DNA from: a virus
Strand: one strand, 5' to 3'
Virus record (IMG/VR): IMGVR_UViG_3300037231_000281
Coordinates: 1-22,945 of that record
Length of the DNA: 22,945 bases
A program made the position numbers and the translations under genes. Numbering within the stretch: the first letter of the stretch is position 1; the number at the start of each line of letters is the position of its first letter. The notes under the pieces were generated by a model. It saw only the letters and a program-made list of their open reading frames with translations. It ran no database searches and was not told the origin of the DNA. Shown in pieces: positions 3,307 to 22,945 of the stretch.

Positions 3307-3729
3307 TCAGGCCGTTACGGCCGCGCCGCTCGTCACGGCGATCCAGCTGCTGTTGCTCCAGAAACACGGAACCCCCGTCCCCGCCCCCGCCGCCTCGCCG
3401 GGCTTGCGCCCGTTCAGGGCATAGGCCCAATCGCCCACGCTCATGTTGGTGGTGGGCAGGTCGGCCACGGTGGCCATGGCGATATAGATCGCCAGAGCCA
3501 CATTGCTGGTCAGATCCCCGCCCACCTGCAACCCGCCCACGGCCACGATCTGCGTGGCCGCCGGCGCGGCCGCCAGGGCCGTGGAATAGCCGGCGTCAAC
3601 CTTGTCGAACCCCTCGCCATAGATCGCGCTCTGCACCGCGCTCAACCAGAACTGCCAGGCGTTCCCCACCTCCGCCCCATCCAGGAACGGCATGTTGAAC
3701 GGCGGGGGTGGAAGGATCGTCGCAACCAT
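3307..3729 (-). CDS. Small tail protein in the gp26 needle position
   Basis: A 140-residue protein whose start overlaps the gp10-like stop by one base (TGATG), so translation is probably coupled. The N-terminus is Pro-rich with a PFLDGAEVGNAWQFWLSAVQ segment. The C-terminus (SVGDWAYALNGRKPGEAAGA ... VPCFWSNSSWIAVTSGAAV) resembles short C-terminal fibre tips in other alphaproteobacterial phages. In P22 the gene immediately after gp10 is the tail needle gp26. This protein holds that position but lacks the long coiled coil expected of a needle, so it may be a plug or knob protein instead. Assignment by position is inference. Confidence 0.55.
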   Translation of the reverse strand: MVATILPPPPFNMPFLDGAEVGNAWQFWLSAVQSAIYGEGFDKVDAGYSTALAAAPAATQIVAVGGLQVGGDLTSNVALAIYIAMATVADLPTTNMSVGDWAYALNGRKPGEAAGAGTGVPCFWSNSSWIAVTSGAAVTA

Positions 3730-5264
3730 CAGGCGGCCGGCCGATCGGCGTTCAGCTCCAGATGGCTGAAAACCACGTTCACCCGGTCGCTACACCGTAT
3801 CTGCACCAGCCGCCCGGGCGCGCGCAGCAGGCCCAGCCTCTGCCAGAACGCCCGCGTATAGTATGCCCCCAGCGCGCCCAGCTGGGCGGCGCGCCAGTCG
3901 GTGAATGTGCGGCCCTGGTCGTCGCTCCATCGCATCTCGATCAGGGGGCTGCCGTTCGGCCCGCTGGCCAGCCCCTGGCCCACCACGCCGTGCACGATGA
4001 TGTTCAAACAGCGCGGATTGCCTTCCTCGATCTTGATGAAGGCGCTGGCCATGCGCGTGAACGGCCCGCCCGCGTCGCTGTATGCGCCCACCTTCATGGT
4101 CCACAGATCATTGGTGGTGTTGTCGCCCACATAGGCCACGCCGGCCACCATGGCCCCCACCTGGCCCCGGAAAGTGGTCTGGCCATAGCTGGCCCACTGC
4201 TGCCACTCCCCCCGCTCATAGCTGTCGCCATAGGCCTGCGCCTGGCTGCCGATGCGGCTGATGTCATAGGCGAAACTGCCCACCCCGGGGATGTTCAGCA
4301 CATAGAATTCATGGCCCTCGAACATCAGCGCCAGGGCGCTGCACTGCGTGGGGTCGGCGCACTGGCGCAGATAATCCTCGATCGTGCTGCTGGAAATCCG
4401 CGTCGGCGCATTGCCCACGCGATAGACCACCAGGTCGTCGCCCACCCAGAAAAGGCTGTTGTCGGAAAACGTCACGGTGTCGCGCGATATGCACCCCCGC
4501 TGAAACCCCCGGCCCACGCTGGGCTGCAAGGGCGCGGTGGCGCTGGCCGTGGTGCTCCAGAACTCCACCGTCTGGGCGCCGAATATCACCGCCTGCTCGT
4601 TCAATATGGCCACGGCCACATTGGGGTCCGGCGCGCTGTTGGCCTGCGCGAAATCCAGCCCGGTCACGTCCGATGCGTCGTCGATCTCGGAATACCAGAA
4701 CGTATCCGATCCGGTGGCCATGAAGATGAACCGGCCCTGCAGCCACGCCACATCGCACACCGCCGGCAGCACGCCGTTGGCGATGGCGTTCCAGCCCTGC
4801 CCATCAAACAGATAGGCGATGCCGCTGGCCACCAGCACCATCTGCGTCTCGCTGGCCGCCCAGCGCACCCGGTCCGTGCCCGGTATCGCCCCGCCGCAGG
4901 CCTGCCCCGTGGCCACGTTGTAAACCGTGGCGCCCGATACGATGAAGATCGCCGATCCATAGGCATACGGCGCCTGGAAAACCCCGCGGATCGGCCCCGT
5001 GCCCAGGTTCCACCCCGTCACCAGGCCCGGTCGGCTATAATGCACCTCGCGCAGCCCCACATAGGGCGCATACGGCCGCTCTTCCCGCAGCGGCGTCTCC
5101 TCGATCACCATGTTCAGCGGCAAAACCGCCGGAAACCCGAACGCCCGCGAAAACGCGTCGGTGAAAAACGGGATCCGCAGCCCCGTCTGCGCCGTGATCC
5201 CGTCACTGCGAAACTGCGCGATCTGCTTGCTGGGCGCCGAGCCCTGACCGTCCGCTCCCGCCAT
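3729..5264 (-). CDS. P22 gp10-like packaged-DNA stabilisation protein
   Basis: A 511-residue protein close in size to P22 gp10 (about 470 residues). It is built of repeated beta blades: an N-terminal segment with PLNMVIEETPLREERPYAPY, then many short strands around GSAIFIVSGATVYNVATG, MVLVASGIAYLFDGQGW, VAWLQGRFIFMATGSDTFWY, AVIFGAQTVEFW and NSLFWVGDDLVVYRV. This beta-propeller-like pattern, and its place directly after a gp4-like gene, match the phage stabilisation family (Phage_stabilise). gp10 proteins bind beneath gp4 at the portal vertex and help close the filled head. Nothing looks broken. The stop overlaps the start of the next gene, as in a P22-type tail-completion operon. Confidence 0.8.
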   Translation of the reverse strand: MAGADGQGSAPSKQIAQFRSDGITAQTGLRIPFFTDAFSRAFGFPAVLPLNMVIEETPLREERPYAPYVGLREVHYSRPGLVTGWNLGTGPIRGVFQAPYAYGSAIFIVSGATVYNVATGQACGGAIPGTDRVRWAASETQMVLVASGIAYLFDGQGWNAIANGVLPAVCDVAWLQGRFIFMATGSDTFWYSEIDDASDVTGLDFAQANSAPDPNVAVAILNEQAVIFGAQTVEFWSTTASATAPLQPSVGRGFQRGCISRDTVTFSDNSLFWVGDDLVVYRVGNAPTRISSSTIEDYLRQCADPTQCSALALMFEGHEFYVLNIPGVGSFAYDISRIGSQAQAYGDSYERGEWQQWASYGQTTFRGQVGAMVAGVAYVGDNTTNDLWTMKVGAYSDAGGPFTRMASAFIKIEEGNPRCLNIIVHGVVGQGLASGPNGSPLIEMRWSDDQGRTFTDWRAAQLGALGAYYTRAFWQRLGLLRAPGRLVQIRCSDRVNVVFSHLELNADRPAA

Positions 5265-5273
5265 GTCCGGGCC

Positions 5274-5954
5274 CTACCCCTGCCCGCCGGCGGGCGCGGG
5301 CGGCGCGGGCAACCCGATCGGCCCCTCGGGGTTGGCGCGGCCTCGGCGGCCATAGGCGCGGGCGATGGCCTGGCTGCCCTGCGCGGCGGCCATGGCCGTG
5401 CTGGGGCTCACGTCGGCGCCGAACTCATCGGCGATCGCCACGGCCAGCATGTATGGCATGTAGGCGATGATCGGATCGGGAAACTCGATGGCCGCGTTCA
5501 GGCCGGCGAAATCCGCCTCCACGATCCAGCTGCCCGTATCCCCGCGAAACCACCAGCGGGTGTTCTGCCCGGCCGTGCTTATCGTGGTGCTGCCCACCAC
5601 GCCGCCGATCTGCCGCCCATTGCCGGCGATGGTCAGGGGCGTCGCCCCCCAGCTAAGCCCCACATCCACCACCCCAAACCGCGCCCCGCCGCGCGGGTTC
5701 AGCGGCGCCGTCAGCGTAAACGCCGCCCCGCCCGGTATCTGATACTCCCCCCCATTCTCCGCCTGCCCGCTCACGCCGCTCAGCGGCAAGGGCGAAAGCC
5801 GAGGCCCGATCAGCGTGCCAAACCAGCTGCGCTTCAGGGCGTTGAACGCCACCAGAGCATCCGCCCCATCATTGGGCCCAGGCGCGACCCCGGCGGCCCA
5901 AAGGCCATGGATGCGCCCGGCGCGCTCGATCACTTCGAGGACGTTAAGGCTCAT
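5274..5954 (-). CDS. gp4-like head completion protein with beta insertion (copy 2)
   Basis: A 226-residue protein. Residues 1-58 form a helical half (VLEVIERAGRIHGL ... DALVAFNALKRSWFGTLIGP) and residues about 158-205 a second helical half (EFPDPIIAYMPYMLAVAIAD EFG). Together they resemble the two halves of P22 gp4, which binds the portal ring. Between them is a beta-rich insertion with GGARFGVVD, LTIAGNGRQIGG and a WWFRGDTGSWIVEADF strand pair. A similar layout occurs in the protein at 13719-14435. The Pro/Gly-rich tail is probably flexible. It lies directly upstream of the gp10-like gene, the P22 gp4-gp10 order. Family assignment rests on pattern and context and was not searched. Confidence 0.65.
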   Translation of the reverse strand: MSLNVLEVIERAGRIHGLWAAGVAPGPNDGADALVAFNALKRSWFGTLIGPRLSPLPLSGVSGQAENGGEYQIPGGAAFTLTAPLNPRGGARFGVVDVGLSWGATPLTIAGNGRQIGGVVGSTTISTAGQNTRWWFRGDTGSWIVEADFAGLNAAIEFPDPIIAYMPYMLAVAIADEFGADVSPSTAMAAAQGSQAIARAYGRRGRANPEGPIGLPAPPAPAGGQG

Positions 5955-5981: not shown

Positions 5982-7187
5982 TTAGGCGTCGGAGAGGAGC
6001 AGGCGGCCCTGGTCGACGGCGGAGAGGGGCGCTTCATCGCAAAGGACAAAGAGCAGGCTGCCAAAGAACAGGATGGCTCCGAGGAAGCCCTCCAGCGGAT
6101 CACCAAAGGCGAGCTCACCGGACACGACTGTCAGAAGCGCGACGGGCCAGAAGAGCCGCCGGCGGCCCGCGCTGAGCGACAGCAGAACCGCCAACAGGAA
6201 GAGCCCCGTGACCAGCCATCCATAGGCGAGGGCAAGATCGAGCGCCCCGCTCTCGGTCACGTGCGCGAGGCGAAGACCGTAGAGCCCGCCCTCGCCTATC
6301 GCGCGGTAGGTTACCCCCTCACCGATCAGGAGATGGTCGGCCGCGTCGCGCCAGCCATCGGCCATGAGATCGGCCCGCAAGGCGTTGTCGGCGTCCCAAT
6401 GGGTGAAGCTGAACCAGACGCCCCCCGCGCCGAGGATTGGGGCCACCAGCTGGAGCGGGGCGACCCGCCATAGCGAAAAGCCGATCAGGCCAACGCAGAG
6501 AACCGCCTCGCCGATGTATCGCCGGGCGTCCGACAGGATCAGCGACCCGACCAGCAGCGCCAGAACACCAAGCGCGCAAAGCGTGTCGCGCCATCCCCGC
6601 CAGCCGCGAAGCCGCGTCGCCACGGAGCAGCACGCCACGAGCGCGACCAGGCCGGCGGCGTGGCTGTTGCCCGTCAGGCCGGGGATTCGGTCGATCGTGC
6701 CCGCCGCGGTGACTCGGCCGCCGTGCTCTGCAAGCCGCCAAAGCCCGGCAAGGTCTCCAAAGCTGGCCACGGCGTCGGCGATGGCGAACCCTAAGCAGAC
6801 GACGCCAATGGCGTTGATGAAATAAGCCCTCTGATTGTTGAGCAGCAGCAACGGGAGCGCGCCCACCTGCAGGGCGAACAGGCCCCAGTCATTGACGCTC
6901 GGCGGATCGTCTCGCGTGAGAAGCCCGCCGAGGCCCGCGACCAGGAAACCGCCCCAGGCCGCGAAGAGCGTCAGCGCGCTGAGCCACCGCATGGGCCCCC
7001 TCGGCACGGTAAACCACGGATCGGCCGTCCAGCAGATCGACATGGACACAAGGCCGGCGGCGATGACGATAGCCAGAACCGGCGTCACTTGGCTGGAATC
7101 GAGCCTCAGGACCGTGTGAGCATAGAGCGAGAAGACGACCGCGAATGCCGTCACCCACGCTAGGCGTTTCTCAAGACTCATCCCCAT
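5982..7187 (-). CDS. Wzy/WaaL-like polytopic membrane protein (O-antigen polymerase or ligase family)
   Basis: A 401-residue integral membrane protein with roughly ten to twelve hydrophobic segments (for example residues 10-24, 34-52, 68-88, 104-117, 122-142, 176-190, 203-219, 228-240, 245-260, 318-340, 346-360, 368-383). The layout fits the Wzy_C/O-antigen ligase superfamily: GLTGNSHAAGL (170-180), SDARRYIGE (219-227), and a loop with RADLMADGWRDAADHLL followed by IGEG (271-291) like the R...W..A....P..G.G motif of that family. HVTESGALDLALAYGW (309-324) corresponds to the usual H(N)..LE...YG segment. These enzymes join or ligate polysaccharide repeat units at the periplasmic face. Its position 21 bases after a tailspike gene suggests serotype conversion that alters the spike's receptor. 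Two in-frame ATGs (codons 1 and 3) are possible; neither has a strong ribosome binding site. Confidence 0.65.
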   Translation of the reverse strand: MGMSLEKRLAWVTAFAVVFSLYAHTVLRLDSSQVTPVLAIVIAAGLVSMSICWTADPWFTVPRGPMRWLSALTLFAAWGGFLVAGLGGLLTRDDPPSVNDWGLFALQVGALPLLLLNNQRAYFINAIGVVCLGFAIADAVASFGDLAGLWRLAEHGGRVTAAGTIDRIPGLTGNSHAAGLVALVACCSVATRLRGWRGWRDTLCALGVLALLVGSLILSDARRYIGEAVLCVGLIGFSLWRVAPLQLVAPILGAGGVWFSFTHWDADNALRADLMADGWRDAADHLLIGEGVTYRAIGEGGLYGLRLAHVTESGALDLALAYGWLVTGLFLLAVLLSLSAGRRRLFWPVALLTVVSGELAFGDPLEGFLGAILFFGSLLFVLCDEAPLSAVDQGRLLLSDA

Positions 7188-7208
7188 GGAGCGGGCATAG
7201 CGCGACCT

Positions 7209-9080
7209 CTAATTGAGATCGACCCACGCCCCGCTTTCCTTGTGCCAGGTGCAGTTGCTGGAGCCGTGGGTGCAGTCGGCGCGGAAGTAGAAATCGCCAT
7301 TATTGCCGACACCGGCGGCCGGGTTTCCGCCTCCGGCCAGGATGCCGCCGCTAGTCTGTGTGCCGCTGCCGTTGCCCGGGTAGATCTCGGCCGTGGACTG
7401 AAGGCTGCCTGCGGTGAGCACACCGGGCGTCGTAACCGCGGCGGCCGCGCCGGAGCTGTTCGTGATGACCGCGAATTCGGCCAGCCCTTCGGCGCTCATC
7501 ACCTCGAACGCCGCGCTATCGGTCGCCGGCTGAACCGCCTCCGTTTGCACGTTGAGATTACCGTTCGAGGCGCAAAGCTTGAACGCTTGGCCGGTGAAGT
7601 TGCCCGCAAAGCCGATGAAGCAGGCGCCGTTGAGGACCTGGACCAGAGACGACGAGGGCGTGGCGCTGGGCGTGACGTCGAGCGCGATCGATCCCCCGGT
7701 GTTCTCGATGTCGAGCGCGTCGGTGTTGGTGGCCGGCTGAAGGACGAGGGTGCCGGCATGTTGCGCGCCCTGCCCCAGGATGTTGACGCCGCTCCCGGTC
7801 ACCTCGAGCTGCGGAACCTGTCCGGCGCCGAGCCACAGGTGGGAACCGCTTCCCCAGCTGGAAACGATGCCATCGCCGGCCGAGGTGCCCGATATGAGAT
7901 CGTTGGCCGTCGCGGCGACCCCCATCAAGAGGTCGAGCCCGGTCCGGCCGATGGACAGGTAATAATTCGCCGCGGCCGAGCCGCTGAGCAGCGAGGACAC
8001 GCCGGCCACGCCCTGGTTGTTGAGGTTGAAATATCCAGTCATGAGGTTGGCGGGATAGGCGTTGAAGTTGACCTGGTTGTCCCAGAGCTGCGACGACGGC
8101 CCAGGCGAGCCGGTCATATAGGTGCCCGAGAAGCCCTGAAGCTCGGAACTGCTCCGGAGGAAGTTCACCGAGCTATTGACGTTCAGATAGGTCCCGCCGC
8201 CCTCGATATCGGTCTGGATCAGGAAATCCGTCCCGTTACTCAGCGTGAACTTGGTCCCGGTCGCGCCCTGGAAAGCGCCGCCGATGAATTTCAGGGTGTT
8301 GGCATAGTTGGCGATCACCCCGCCCCCGTCGTGGTTAAGGACCGTGATCGTGGTCACCCCGTTCGCGGTGCTCGTGCCCTCGAAGTCCAGAAGGTGCGAC
8401 TGGGTGTCCTCAAGGGTGGTCGTGTAAGCGCCGGTGTTGAACAGCCACCCGCGCTTGTTCACCCCATCGTTAATGACCCTCACCCCCCGATACCGCCCAT
8501 CAAACGCCTGCACCTGATCAAACGCCGCGTTCGTCCCCACGTCGGCCACATTCGCCAGATCCACGGTCAGGTTCTCAAACCCGAAGCCCTCGACGTAGCC
8601 GCCAAAGGGTGTGCCGTCGATCTTGAACACCGCGCCGGTCAGGGCGCTGGTGGGGCGGAATATGCAGCGGCCGGAGGTGGTGGCGGCGGCCTGGTCGGTG
8701 GGGCCGGCGCCGGCGATCAGCTGGCCGTGGCTGGCGGCCGTGGTCAGGTTCAGGGTGGCGCTGATCTTATAGATCCCGTTGCAATAGAGCCGCGCCCCCG
8801 AGGCGATCGCCGCCTGTATCCCCGCCGTGGAGTCGGTCGCGCCCGAGGGGTCCACCCCGGAAAAACCGTTCAGGCTGGTGAGGACATAGTTCCGCATGTC
8901 CCCAGCGTAAGAGGCCTGCAGGCTCGCCGCGCCGGCCGGGAGGTTGGGGAATTGATCGGTCGAGGCGATCGGCCCTCGGTCCGCCAGCCCGCTAACCGCC
9001 TTGTTCTGCGCAAAGGCCATCTCCCCGGCGCAGCTGGCGAGCGCCAGCAACGCCAGGATCGGGGCGTGGGTGGGTTTCAT
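7209..9080 (-). CDS. Pectate-lyase-like beta-helix tailspike with N-terminal signal/lipobox
   Basis: A 623-residue protein. The start was placed at 9080, not 9206, because GGAGAG lies just upstream of this ATG and the following residues form a signal-like sequence; the extra 42 codons are Arg/Gly/Pro-rich and unlikely. Residues 1-24 have a basic start, a hydrophobic core and LASC at 14-17 (a lipobox candidate), with a possible Sec site after AFA at 24. Around residue 76, GVDPSGATDSTAGIQAAI leads into a right-handed beta-helix typical of phage tailspike depolymerases. Repeated short strands continue to about residue 380, followed by beta-rich, Gly/Asn/Ser-rich C-terminal modules ending in FYFRADCTHGSSNC. 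Likely role: binding or cleaving host surface polysaccharide. The catalytic residues cannot be assigned. A secreted or lipid-anchored fate would be odd for a virion protein. Confidence 0.7.
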   Translation of the reverse strand: MKPTHAPILALLALASCAGEMAFAQNKAVSGLADRGPIASTDQFPNLPAGAASLQASYAGDMRNYVLTSLNGFSGVDPSGATDSTAGIQAAIASGARLYCNGIYKISATLNLTTAASHGQLIAGAGPTDQAAATTSGRCIFRPTSALTGAVFKIDGTPFGGYVEGFGFENLTVDLANVADVGTNAAFDQVQAFDGRYRGVRVINDGVNKRGWLFNTGAYTTTLEDTQSHLLDFEGTSTANGVTTITVLNHDGGGVIANYANTLKFIGGAFQGATGTKFTLSNGTDFLIQTDIEGGGTYLNVNSSVNFLRSSSELQGFSGTYMTGSPGPSSQLWDNQVNFNAYPANLMTGYFNLNNQGVAGVSSLLSGSAAANYYLSIGRTGLDLLMGVAATANDLISGTSAGDGIVSSWGSGSHLWLGAGQVPQLEVTGSGVNILGQGAQHAGTLVLQPATNTDALDIENTGGSIALDVTPSATPSSSLVQVLNGACFIGFAGNFTGQAFKLCASNGNLNVQTEAVQPATDSAAFEVMSAEGLAEFAVITNSSGAAAAVTTPGVLTAGSLQSTAEIYPGNGSGTQTSGGILAGGGNPAAGVGNNGDFYFRADCTHGSSNCTWHKESGAWVDLN

Positions 9081-11073: not shown

Positions 11074-11430
11074 TCACGCCGTGACGGTCAGGTCGCGGTC
11101 GGCGCTGGCGTTGATCGCCTCGCGGATCGATCGCGCCAGGATGATGCAGCCGTCGCTGCCGGTGTGGTTCATCGCCGCGTTGTCGCCGTGGATGAAGAAG
11201 CCGGACCGGGTGGTCGCCACCTTCACCGGGCTCAGGTGCATGGCCACCGGCCCCAGGCGCGGGTGATCGAACGCCGTGCCGATGCTCCACACCCCCTCGG
11301 GAATCGGGCCCACCATGGCCGTGGTCTGCATGGCCGGATTGTTCAGCCCCTCGCCATGGCCGCTATAGCCCTCGGCCGCCGCCTCGCCGTCATGGCTGAG
11401 CGCGCCGGTCTTCTGGCGGTATGTCCACAT
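11074..11430 (-). CDS. Tlde1/DUF2778-type L,D-transpeptidase-fold protein, putative endolysin
   Basis: A compact 118-residue protein matching the DUF2778/Tlde1 pattern: YSGHGEGLNNPAMQ (22-35), VGPIPEGVWSIG (40-51), the catalytic-type FFIHGDN (His81) and GSDGCI (Cys95). In this family the His and Cys belong to an L,D-transpeptidase/carboxypeptidase-like active site acting on peptidoglycan stem peptides. Known members include secreted type VI effectors. Here the gene lies between a TM/coiled-coil protein and a two-TM holin candidate, so it is most simply the phage's lysis enzyme. There is no signal peptide, consistent with holin-dependent export. Cleavage activity and bond are inferred from the family and untested. 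Confidence 0.75.
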   Translation of the reverse strand: MWTYRQKTGALSHDGEAAAEGYSGHGEGLNNPAMQTTAMVGPIPEGVWSIGTAFDHPRLGPVAMHLSPVKVATTRSGFFIHGDNAAMNHTGSDGCIILARSIREAINASADRDLTVTA

Positions 11431-11713: not shown

Positions 11714-12967
11714 TCAGTACTGCCAGCAGGTGATTTTAAGCCGGTCGCCGGCGCCGAACGTCGTCACTACCCCGGCCATGGAATAGGCCGTCAACACCGG
11801 CGCCGTGGTGGAATCCGTGGTCTCCTGCAGGCGCAGGGTCGAGGTGATGTCGTCGCCCGAACACGCATAGCCATCGCTGGCCGCCGTCATCGACAGGGTG
11901 ACGGTCGATCCCGTGGGCGTCCCCGCCGTCAGGGTGTAGACGGCCAGGGCCGTGCCGTTGGCCTTGGTGACGGTGCAGGTGGTGACACCCGCCACCACAC
12001 ACGGCCCGGGCGTAATGTTTCTGATCCATCCAGCCCCCGCGAAGGTGATCGAGGCGGCGGAATTGATCGATAGATTGGACGTGATGATCCCGTCCGGGAA
12101 CGTCTGGTTGCCGGTCCAGGTCTGAGCCTGGTTCAGCGCCGCCAGCGTGCCCCCCAGGGGCGGCAGGGTGTAGGTCTGCCCCGTCGTGCCGGTCAGGCTG
12201 ACGGTCGCCGCGTTGAAGGCCCAGCCGTTGACGCTGGTGATCGAGGTGGCCGTGGCGTAGGGGCCGAACGCCACCCCGTTGGTCATGGTGCAGATCACCG
12301 CCAGGGTGTTGCTGGTCGCGCAGTCGCCGCTCAGGTTGCCGGGCTCGATCGAACTCGCGCCGGCAAACGCCGCCAGCGTGCCCGCCACGGGCGATCCGGT
12401 CACTGAAGGCGGGGCGAACCCCAGGTTGGAAGCGGCCGCGCCAGGCGCCAGCAGAGAGGTCGCCAGCGTGCCGCTGGTGATGTTGCTGGCGTCCATCGTG
12501 TTGGTGAAGGCCGAGGGGGCGAAAGATACGCCGTTGCTCTTTGTGCAGACGATGTTGGGCACGGTCAGCGTGCAGTCGCCGCCGAGGGTGAAGCCGCCGA
12601 ACGCGCCGGCGTTGTTGTATTCGAGCTGGCCGGTGGACCCGCCGGGTGTGGTCGTGGCGCCCGATCCGGCGCCGCACGCCCCGCCCGCGTCGCCGAGCAC
12701 CCCGGCCGATATCCACTTGGCGCAGTCGCCCGCCGTCGGCGTTCCGGAGATGGTGGGCCAGCCACTCAACTGGCCGCGGATGTAGGTGAGCAGGGCCGCC
12801 GGCGTGGCGATCACATCGGCGCCGGACTGCACCATGGGGATCATCTCGCTCCCCGTCAGCGTCGCCGCCGCCGGGAGGGAGGAGATCCTCACCTGGGCCT
12901 GGGCGGAGATCCCCAGAAACCCCAGGAACAGGGCGCAAAGAACGCGCGAGAACAGCGAGTGCCTCAT
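11714..12967 (-). CDS. Tail-fibre-like protein with Sec signal peptide
   Basis: A 417-residue protein. Residues 1-24 form a textbook Sec signal peptide: basic MRHSLFSR, hydrophobic VLCALFLGFLG, cleavage after AQA. The next segment, RISSLPAAATLTGSEMIPMV with GADVIATPAALLTYIRG, is a recurrent N-terminal module of phage fibre-like proteins. The rest is Thr/Gly/Ala/Ser-rich with repeated NLGFAPP/LSGDC-type elements and a Cys-rich beta C-terminus (CVVAGVTTCTV, GYACSGDDI). The ATG overlaps the upstream stop as ATGA. It ends 3 bases before the lysis cassette. Either the fibre is exported before assembly, or the protein acts at the host surface; both are inference. Confidence 0.65.
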   Translation of the reverse strand: MRHSLFSRVLCALFLGFLGISAQAQVRISSLPAAATLTGSEMIPMVQSGADVIATPAALLTYIRGQLSGWPTISGTPTAGDCAKWISAGVLGDAGGACGAGSGATTTPGGSTGQLEYNNAGAFGGFTLGGDCTLTVPNIVCTKSNGVSFAPSAFTNTMDASNITSGTLATSLLAPGAAASNLGFAPPSVTGSPVAGTLAAFAGASSIEPGNLSGDCATSNTLAVICTMTNGVAFGPYATATSITSVNGWAFNAATVSLTGTTGQTYTLPPLGGTLAALNQAQTWTGNQTFPDGIITSNLSINSAASITFAGAGWIRNITPGPCVVAGVTTCTVTKANGTALAVYTLTAGTPTGSTVTLSMTAASDGYACSGDDITSTLRLQETTDSTTAPVLTAYSMAGVVTTFGAGDRLKITCWQY

Positions 12968-21412: not shown

Positions 21413-21605
21413 GTGTCCGGGCGTCAGGCCGGCGACGCCGACTCCGCACTTCGGTCTCGCAAAATCCGCCCCCCCGCGCTAAACGACCACGGAAGGGCCG
21501 ACCCCGGACGTTCGTGTCGCCTTTCCACGCGCTGACGCGAGATGATCCCAGGCTGCGCGGGCCAGGGTATGAATTTTGCGCCAGCATCAACAGTGGAGCG
21601 CTTGA

Positions 21606-21631
21606 TCGAGGCGTCATTTCGACGCCATCGA
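21606..21631 (+). promoter_or_regulatory. Hairpin in the purA leader
   Basis: GGCGTC (21610-21615) and GACGCC (21621-21626) pair around a 5-base loop, and TCGA/TCGA extends the stem to 10 bp with one bulged A. It lies about 25 bases upstream of the purA start. It could influence translation or mark the end of an upstream transcript; there is no T-run. Confidence 0.3.
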
Positions 21632-21655
21632 GCCTCGCGCGGGAGATGAGAGACT

Positions 21656-22945
21656 TTGGGTAATGTGACGGTGATCGGCGCTCAATGGGGCGACGAGGGC
21701 AAGGGTCGGGTCATCGACTGGCTCGCCGACCGAGCTGACGTAGTGGTGCGTTTTCAGGGCGGCAACAATGCCGGCCACACCATTGTGGTGGGAAACAGCA
21801 CCTATAAGTTCGCCCTGCTGCCGTCTGGCGTGGTCCAGGGCAAACTATCGGTGATCGGCAACGGCGTGGTGGTCGATCCCTGGTCCCTGCTCGAGGAGAT
21901 CGAGCGAGTCCGAGCCCAGGGCCTGGCTATCGATCCGGACATTCTGGTGTTGGCCGACAACGCCGCCCTTGTCCTGCCGCTACACCGCGATCTGGACGCG
22001 GCCCGCGAGGCCCGCGCCGGAGCAGGCAGGATCGGCACCACCGGCAGGGGCATCGGCCCGGCCTATGAAGACAAGGTCGGGCGGCGGGCGATCCGCTTTT
22101 GCGACCTTGCCGACCCCACCGCCCTGGAAACCAAGATCGAACGGCTCCTCGCGCACCACCAACCCCTGCGCGCGGGGCTCGACCTCCCCGAGGTGACGGC
22201 GGAGGATCTCATGGCGCTGCTCCTTGAGGTGGCGCCCAAGGTCGGGATCTATGTAAAGCCAGCTTGGCGCGTGCTGGATCAGGCCATGAAGGCTGGCCGC
22301 CTCATCCTGTTTGAAGGCGCCCAGGCGACCATGCTCGATGTGGACCACGGCACCTACCCGTTCGTAACGTCTTCCAACACCGTGGCGGGCCAGGCGGCCA
22401 CCGGGTCGGGCGTGGGGCCTTCGGGCGGCGGCTATGTCCTGGGAATCGTCAAGGCCTATACGACCCGGGTGGGCGAGGGCCCCTTCCCTTGCGAACTACA
22501 CGACGAAATTGGCGAGCGCCTCGGCGTGCGCGGTCACGAGTTTGGCACGAACACCGGCCGCAAGCGCCGCTGCGGCTGGTTCGATGCGGTGTTGGTCCGC
22601 CAGTCGGTGGCGATCAGCGGGATCGAAGGCGTGGTGTTGACCAAGCTCGACGTGCTTGATGGTTTCGACACCTTAAGGATTTGCGTCGGTTATCGCCTGG
22701 GCGACCGGGTGCTGGACTATCTCCCGGCAAGTCTGAGCGAACAGGCGGCCGTCGAACCGATCTACGAAGAGATTGAGGGCTGGAAGGACGAAACGCGTGG
22801 CGCCCGCTCCTGGAAGGACCTGCCGGCTGCGGCGGTGAAATATGTGCGCCGCATCGAGGAGTTGATCGGCGCTCAGGTGGCCGCGGTGACCACCAGTCCG
22901 GAGCGCGAAGACATCATCATCATGCGAGACCCGTTCCGGGGGTAG
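21656..22945 (+). CDS. purA: Adenylosuccinate synthetase
   Basis: A complete 429-residue PurA, which joins IMP and aspartate using GTP to make adenylosuccinate, the first committed step to AMP. Key features are in their usual places: [10 protein letters not shown] with Asp13 and Lys16, NNAGH with His41, [18 protein letters not shown] (about 127-144), [44 protein letters not shown] and [12 protein letters not shown]. The catalytic Asp is retained, so it is not a phage PurZ (2-aminoadenine pathway). The start is TTG, chosen because it yields the typical [11 protein letters not shown]-terminus; a GAGAGA-like binding site lies close upstream. It reads as a host housekeeping gene. Confidence 0.95.

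Follow-up and report, generated by a model that had tools for sequence, protein, structure and literature searches.

A probable Wzy-type polysaccharide polymerase gene as cargo behind the tailspike of a P22-like prophage

The window examined in this study, a virus record of 22,945 bases, contains on its minus strand an ORF (5982..7187, ATG start) for a 401-aa polytopic membrane protein, assigned from its predicted fold to the Wzy/WaaL superfamily and proposed here as an alternative surface-polysaccharide polymerase. In our judgement it is probably a Wzy-type inner-membrane polymerase of O-antigen or capsule, carried for receptor modification as cargo behind the tailspike of a P22-like prophage with a Caulobacteraceae-type host. 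Computation supports the fold and family of the protein, the slot that its gene occupies and the exchange, in that slot, with other polysaccharide-assembly genes. From this we infer that the enzyme would be a polymerase rather than a ligase, that it would alter the linkage of the surface polymer, and that loss of recognition by the spike and a protective effect would follow.

Between positions 1 and 18961 every likely phage gene is read from the minus strand, and the Wzy-like gene therefore sits within the late structural operon, as the preliminary description had stated. The span 5982-9080 and the 21-bp gap between the Wzy-like and spike genes were likewise given correctly there; the spike gene, also on the minus strand, is 7209..9080 (623 aa, ATG at 9080 with GGAGAG upstream). 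On its other side, 27 bp separate the Wzy-like gene from a P22 gp4-like tail gene (5274..5954), named by position and phage lineage, which has the same place beside gp10 in most relatives. The gp4-like protein is 52-71% identical in most of them; it has no match in Pfam and otherwise hits weak, unnamed families only. Next comes the gene of a P22 gp10-like phage stabilisation protein, or head closure protein (3729..5264; PF11134, 1.9e-10; phrog_578, 5e-72). A fibre-like gene (11714-12967), the major capsid protein gene (14984..16126; phrog_334, 2.8e-51; PF13252, 2.6e-37) and a P22-like portal gene (16949..18961; PF16510, 1.5e-100), with which the late module begins in the window, are on the same strand.

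Also among the late genes is a Tlde1-domain protein (11074-11430, minus strand; PF10908, 5.6e-12; L,D-transpeptidase-like), possibly a lysis or peptidoglycan enzyme. The motif TATGTTGCAATATG occurs twice upstream of the portal gene (19009-19022 and 19194-19207, minus strand); it also precedes the portal in L033, and a close form does so in L037. It is possibly an operator, part of a promoter or an attachment core, with a chance expectation of 0.46 copies in the window and two copies reached by 9 of 100 shuffles. The absence of a terminase was considered as a sign of decay and dropped as such: in genome G396 the terminase is found at the distal end of the late module, a place that would fall outside the window; in G017, unlike G396, it directly precedes the portal.

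Past the portal, the plus strand (20024..22945) is a probable host flank with a caspase-domain protein and a complete purA (PF00656, 3.1e-34; NF002223, 5.5e-186). The cellular genes that abut the portal end vary among relatives: purA in the window, folE in L037, PEP-CTERM and Rieske-type genes in G001 and thiE in G019 (the PEP-CTERM, Rieske-type and thiE names, in contrast with purA and folE, were read from translations). This variation fits integrated prophages, and the window has the appearance of a prophage end. Nine virus contigs, all of them fragments, contained no PF00589 tyrosine integrase. The caspase-domain (Peptidase_C14) protein (20024-21412, plus strand) has a 66% identical relative in genome G006, where purA is not among its neighbours, which leaves the host flank without confirmation by an empty site.

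The Wzy-like ORF is not a chance reading frame, because independent contigs contain 12 homologues, 28-52% identical to the window protein, whose frames are uninterrupted throughout. Searches with peptide patterns yielded one viral relative (47% identity) and two from Caulobacteraceae MAGs (52% and 45%), a set of 390 genomes from the family to which G001 belongs yielded four more, and a widened alignment added five more viral contigs, which with the window gives 13 family members. Of these 390 genomes, 6 had the gene; searches widened to the class and the order found it in 1 of 385 and 2 of 398 genomes, respectively.

Taken alone, the window protein matched no model of Pfam, PHROGs or NCBIfam. 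Four relatives matched Pfam Wzy_C (PF04932), namely L004 (5e-6), L005 (1.8e-4), L023 (2.3e-4) and L019 (3.4e-3); none of them reached the curated cut-off of 31.7 bits (scores 26.8, 21.7, 21.4 and 17.6). AlphaFold, supplied with an alignment of nine sequences, produced a model with pLDDT 81 and pTM 0.84 (pLDDT only 45 from the single sequence). When this model was compared by Foldseek with 350,542 PDB chains, the sole significant match was the O-antigen ligase WaaL (7tpg; E 6.3e-5, probability 1.00, TM 0.50), and the runner-up, a complex I subunit (E 0.07), was about 1000 times weaker. Foldseek against viral models gave nothing significant. Searches of PDB sequences with phmmer and hmmsearch returned nothing useful (repeat proteins only, E 0.005, by composition), none of 50,697 annotated phages matched the window or the L023 protein in tblastn, and comparison by hhalign detected nothing with the Wzy-beta of epsilon15, the Wzy_C protein of the chromosomal locus described below or three other polytopic proteins. 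The preliminary description had named in advance a fold unrelated to Wzy/WaaL as the result that would count against it; the AlphaFold model, the Foldseek match and Wzy_C in the relatives agree on a Wzy/WaaL fold. Membership of the Wzy_C/WaaL superfamily is thus established at the level of the predicted fold.

Six residues, R222, Y224, R271, E312, S313 and G323, are invariant in all 13 sequences and are candidate catalytic residues. In a weak profile alignment with Wzy-beta of phage D3 (E 0.013), R271 falls on R270, which mutagenesis found to be essential together with R254, R272 and H300 (PMC4815439). R222 and R271 may represent the essential arginines of the periplasmic region, the alignment to D3 being weak. 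The histidine of the HX9-10G motif is not conserved in the 13 sequences, where an invariant Glu-Ser pair (E312 and S313, respectively 10 and 9 residues ahead of G323) stands in its place, and a histidine at the nearby position 309 is found in 3 of the 13 only.

This replacement of an essential histidine makes a ligase role appear less likely. A WaaL-like ligase, moving polymer onto the lipid A core, would explain why WaaL is the best structural match, and Wzy_C is itself an 'O-Antigen ligase' model; however, the same domain occurs in Wzy polymerases such as D3 Wzy-beta (PMC4815439). Compared with WaaL (7tpg), the window protein is alike in fold, but it has 15% identity, and its gene is not set in a core/ligase locus. 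Moreover, the one homologue on a bacterial chromosome, L010 (an 808-kb contig, 40% identity), adjoins GT2, GT11, polysaccharide export and Wzz-type chain-length genes in a locus that already has its own strong Wzy_C gene (1.3e-16), and a relative of EpsG polymerases takes the same phage slot (see below). We consider a ligase unlikely.

The remaining 12 of the 13 members are in phages that share the gp4 and gp10 genes or the spike. In nine cases (the window, L004, L014, L015, L016, L019, L020, L022 and L023) the gene occupies the slot between spike and gp4, with one small gene in between in L019 and with the gene inverted in L023. L021 opens at its contig end with the Wzy gene, followed by gp4, and in L005 the Wzy gene is right behind the spike. 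In L017 (the same contig as L002) it is found behind gp10, directly followed by an ORF (L002:9364-10554) that we take to be an IS66-type transposase; such a putative transposase could explain the displacement. In the window, L005, L016, L038 and L040 the gene follows the spike on the same strand after 9-24 bp. Association with a Wzx/Wzy-type polysaccharide locus was found for L010/L013 and for a phage cassette in L023.

In the tree, the chromosomal homologue branches beside one phage clade, and its position in a bacterial polysaccharide locus is what one would expect if the phage gene were a bystander picked up from such a locus, with no present function for the phage. This appears highly improbable, considering that 12 of 13 members are in phages of this one kind, that a single slot has been kept despite identities of 28-52% to the window protein, that the candidate catalytic residues are invariant, that the gene is present in 6 of the family's 390 genomes and hardly anywhere else, and that no gene decay was seen in close relatives.

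The same slot also houses other genes. In L023/G396 it is filled, in the orientation opposite to that of the late genes (L023:2414-5805), by a cassette of a 334-aa protein with no match in Pfam, a flippase (Polysacc_synt, 1.3e-40), a UDP-galactopyranose mutase (4.1e-71) and the Wzy homologue. In L027 it is filled by a 352-aa polytopic protein that is not homologous to that of the window and whose gene is separated from its neighbours by 9 and 10 bp. This protein itself has no match in Pfam; its relative in G177 (34-35% identity) belongs to the EpsG family (9.5e-9, above cut-off), and 2 bp separate the gene of the latter from the spike-like gene ahead of it, in a siphovirus-type prophage (L054:4024-11658, contig C8) that has an integrase and a lysozyme and adjoins flippase and sugar transferase genes. 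In addition, the Wzy gene of L005 is directly followed by an Acyl_transf_3 gene in the reverse orientation, and L026 has an acyltransferase-3 gene near a short spike. The occurrence of two unrelated polymerase families behind the spikes of two unrelated phage types is the strongest argument for function, and the comparative anatomy of the relatives supports a polysaccharide-modifying cargo slot beside the spike. Directly ahead of the G396 portal there is also a sulfotransferase gene (L033:1-984; PF13469, 1.2e-7), either prophage cargo or a host gene.

The preliminary description had called the spike a beta-helix protein. This holds by way of its homologue in L005, which matches Pect-lyase_RHGA_epim (1.4e-10), whereas the window spike, 41% identical to that of L002, has no Pfam match of its own. 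In a distance comparison of eight phages, the Wzy distances tracked those of the spike (rho 0.50, p 0.014; given gp10, 0.59, p 0.006) and were without relation to those of gp10 (-0.12) or gp4 (0.00). With one reduced set the correlation was rho 0.27 (p 0.19), the signal resting on few close relatives, and these data may give a hint of co-evolution between Wzy and spike.

The N-terminus of the window spike (9080-9006) resembles a signal peptide, with a lipobox LASC, directly before an adaptor-like segment, and that of the window fibre (12967-12893) is also signal-peptide-like, ahead of such a segment, as in the fibre homologues of L017 and L040. Seven of the ten spikes with a readable N-terminus share this feature. 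Beyond the window, such N-termini of spike or fibre proteins are found in L005, L016, L017, L033, L035 and L040, some with a lipobox, and a simple scan of hydropathy ranked the N-termini of spike and fibre as the two most hydrophobic among 16 late proteins of the window. They are odd for virion proteins, which are assembled in the cytoplasm. It is conceivable, if quite doubtful, that the spike serves outside the virion as well, goes to the envelope and forms with Wzy an exported pair that would remodel the surface polysaccharide of the lysogen, one building the polymer and the other trimming the coat.

In the reading that we prefer, that of a receptor-modifying polymerase carried by a prophage, the enzyme would act in the periplasm on undecaprenyl-linked repeat units of host origin and join them with a linkage of its own. 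The new surface polymer would no longer fit the spike of the phage itself, and the lysogen, or the late-infected cell and the progeny, would be shielded from related phages. A Caulobacter phage requires smooth LPS genes (PMC13001222), and O-polysaccharide is therefore a plausible receptor in this host group.

When the gene is expressed bears on its use. A scan with the sigma-70 consensus only found no sigma-70-like promoter near the Wzy-like gene. This result and the same-strand packing appear to favour late expression, whereas the inverted L023 cassette would favour independent expression. The same kind of enzyme could have a lytic use: co-transcribed with the spike, it would bring about a late change of the surface that stops progeny from sticking to the doomed cell and its debris and prevents superinfection by siblings. 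The negative promoter scan and the location on the late-gene strand, 9-24 bp behind the spike in the five phages listed above, speak for such a use. The L023/G396 homologue, on the opposite strand with a flippase, a mutase and a further gene, would instead need its own transcription, and a change of linkage just before lysis should alter little of the polymer already present. We regard a lytic use as possible but not likely.

Pairs of a tailspike and a Wzy polymerase are already known from epsilon15, D3 and Acinetobacter prophages. Among the seroconversion genes of Salmonella phage epsilon15, a temperate podovirus, that of tailspike gp20 is directly followed, as is the spike gene in the window, by that of a Wzy polymerase (Wzy-beta) with ten TM segments, with attP and int nearby; its polymerase gene, however, comes after a terminator, is encoded in the reverse orientation and has the gene of an alpha-polymerase inhibitor (Iap) as a companion, while that of the window is on the same strand, and the two proteins have no sequence similarity by profile comparison. 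Pseudomonas phage D3 (iap-oac-wzy-beta) likewise has, after a tail fibre gene, an O-antigen modification cassette with an acetylase and a Wzy_C polymerase, but there Wzy-beta is on the opposite strand, has its own candidate promoter and depends on an essential His300 (PMC4815439), while the window protein has Glu-Ser at that place and its gene no iap beside it. The gaps of 21 and 27 bp are in fact too small for an Iap-like small gene next to the polymerase gene. Infection with D3 makes the host resistant to superinfection (PMC4815439). The preliminary description had judged the placement of the gene unusual; epsilon15 and D3 are the classic cases of such a gene next to the tailspike, and what does differ from these is the same-strand packing within the late operon.

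The prophage-encoded Wzy of Acinetobacter baumannii (WzyPh) was demonstrated to alter how capsule units are linked, and such prophages also encode a tailspike depolymerase; in the later Acinetobacter paper the authors speculate on protection by the combination of spike and Wzy (PMC9241936, PMC13228068). These spike-bearing prophages with a polymerase of their own are similar to the window, but phages and hosts differ. What is new here is the family, its tight slot on the late strand, the refilling of this slot with a cassette or with a relative of polymerases that is not homologous to the family, and the Glu-Ser pair in place of the histidine. Neither the enzyme family nor the tight, repeatedly refilled slot was found in the annotated collections searched.

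A polymerase family missed by Pfam, PHROGs and NCBIfam is now annotated. The P22-like prophage lineage to which the window belongs has a fixed cargo slot, from the receptor-recognising spike to the tail genes, in which unrelated polymerases, and even a flippase-mutase-Wzy cassette, interchange. The old idea that temperate phages combine their spike with an enzyme masking the receptor of that spike thus becomes directly testable in a non-pathogenic host group.
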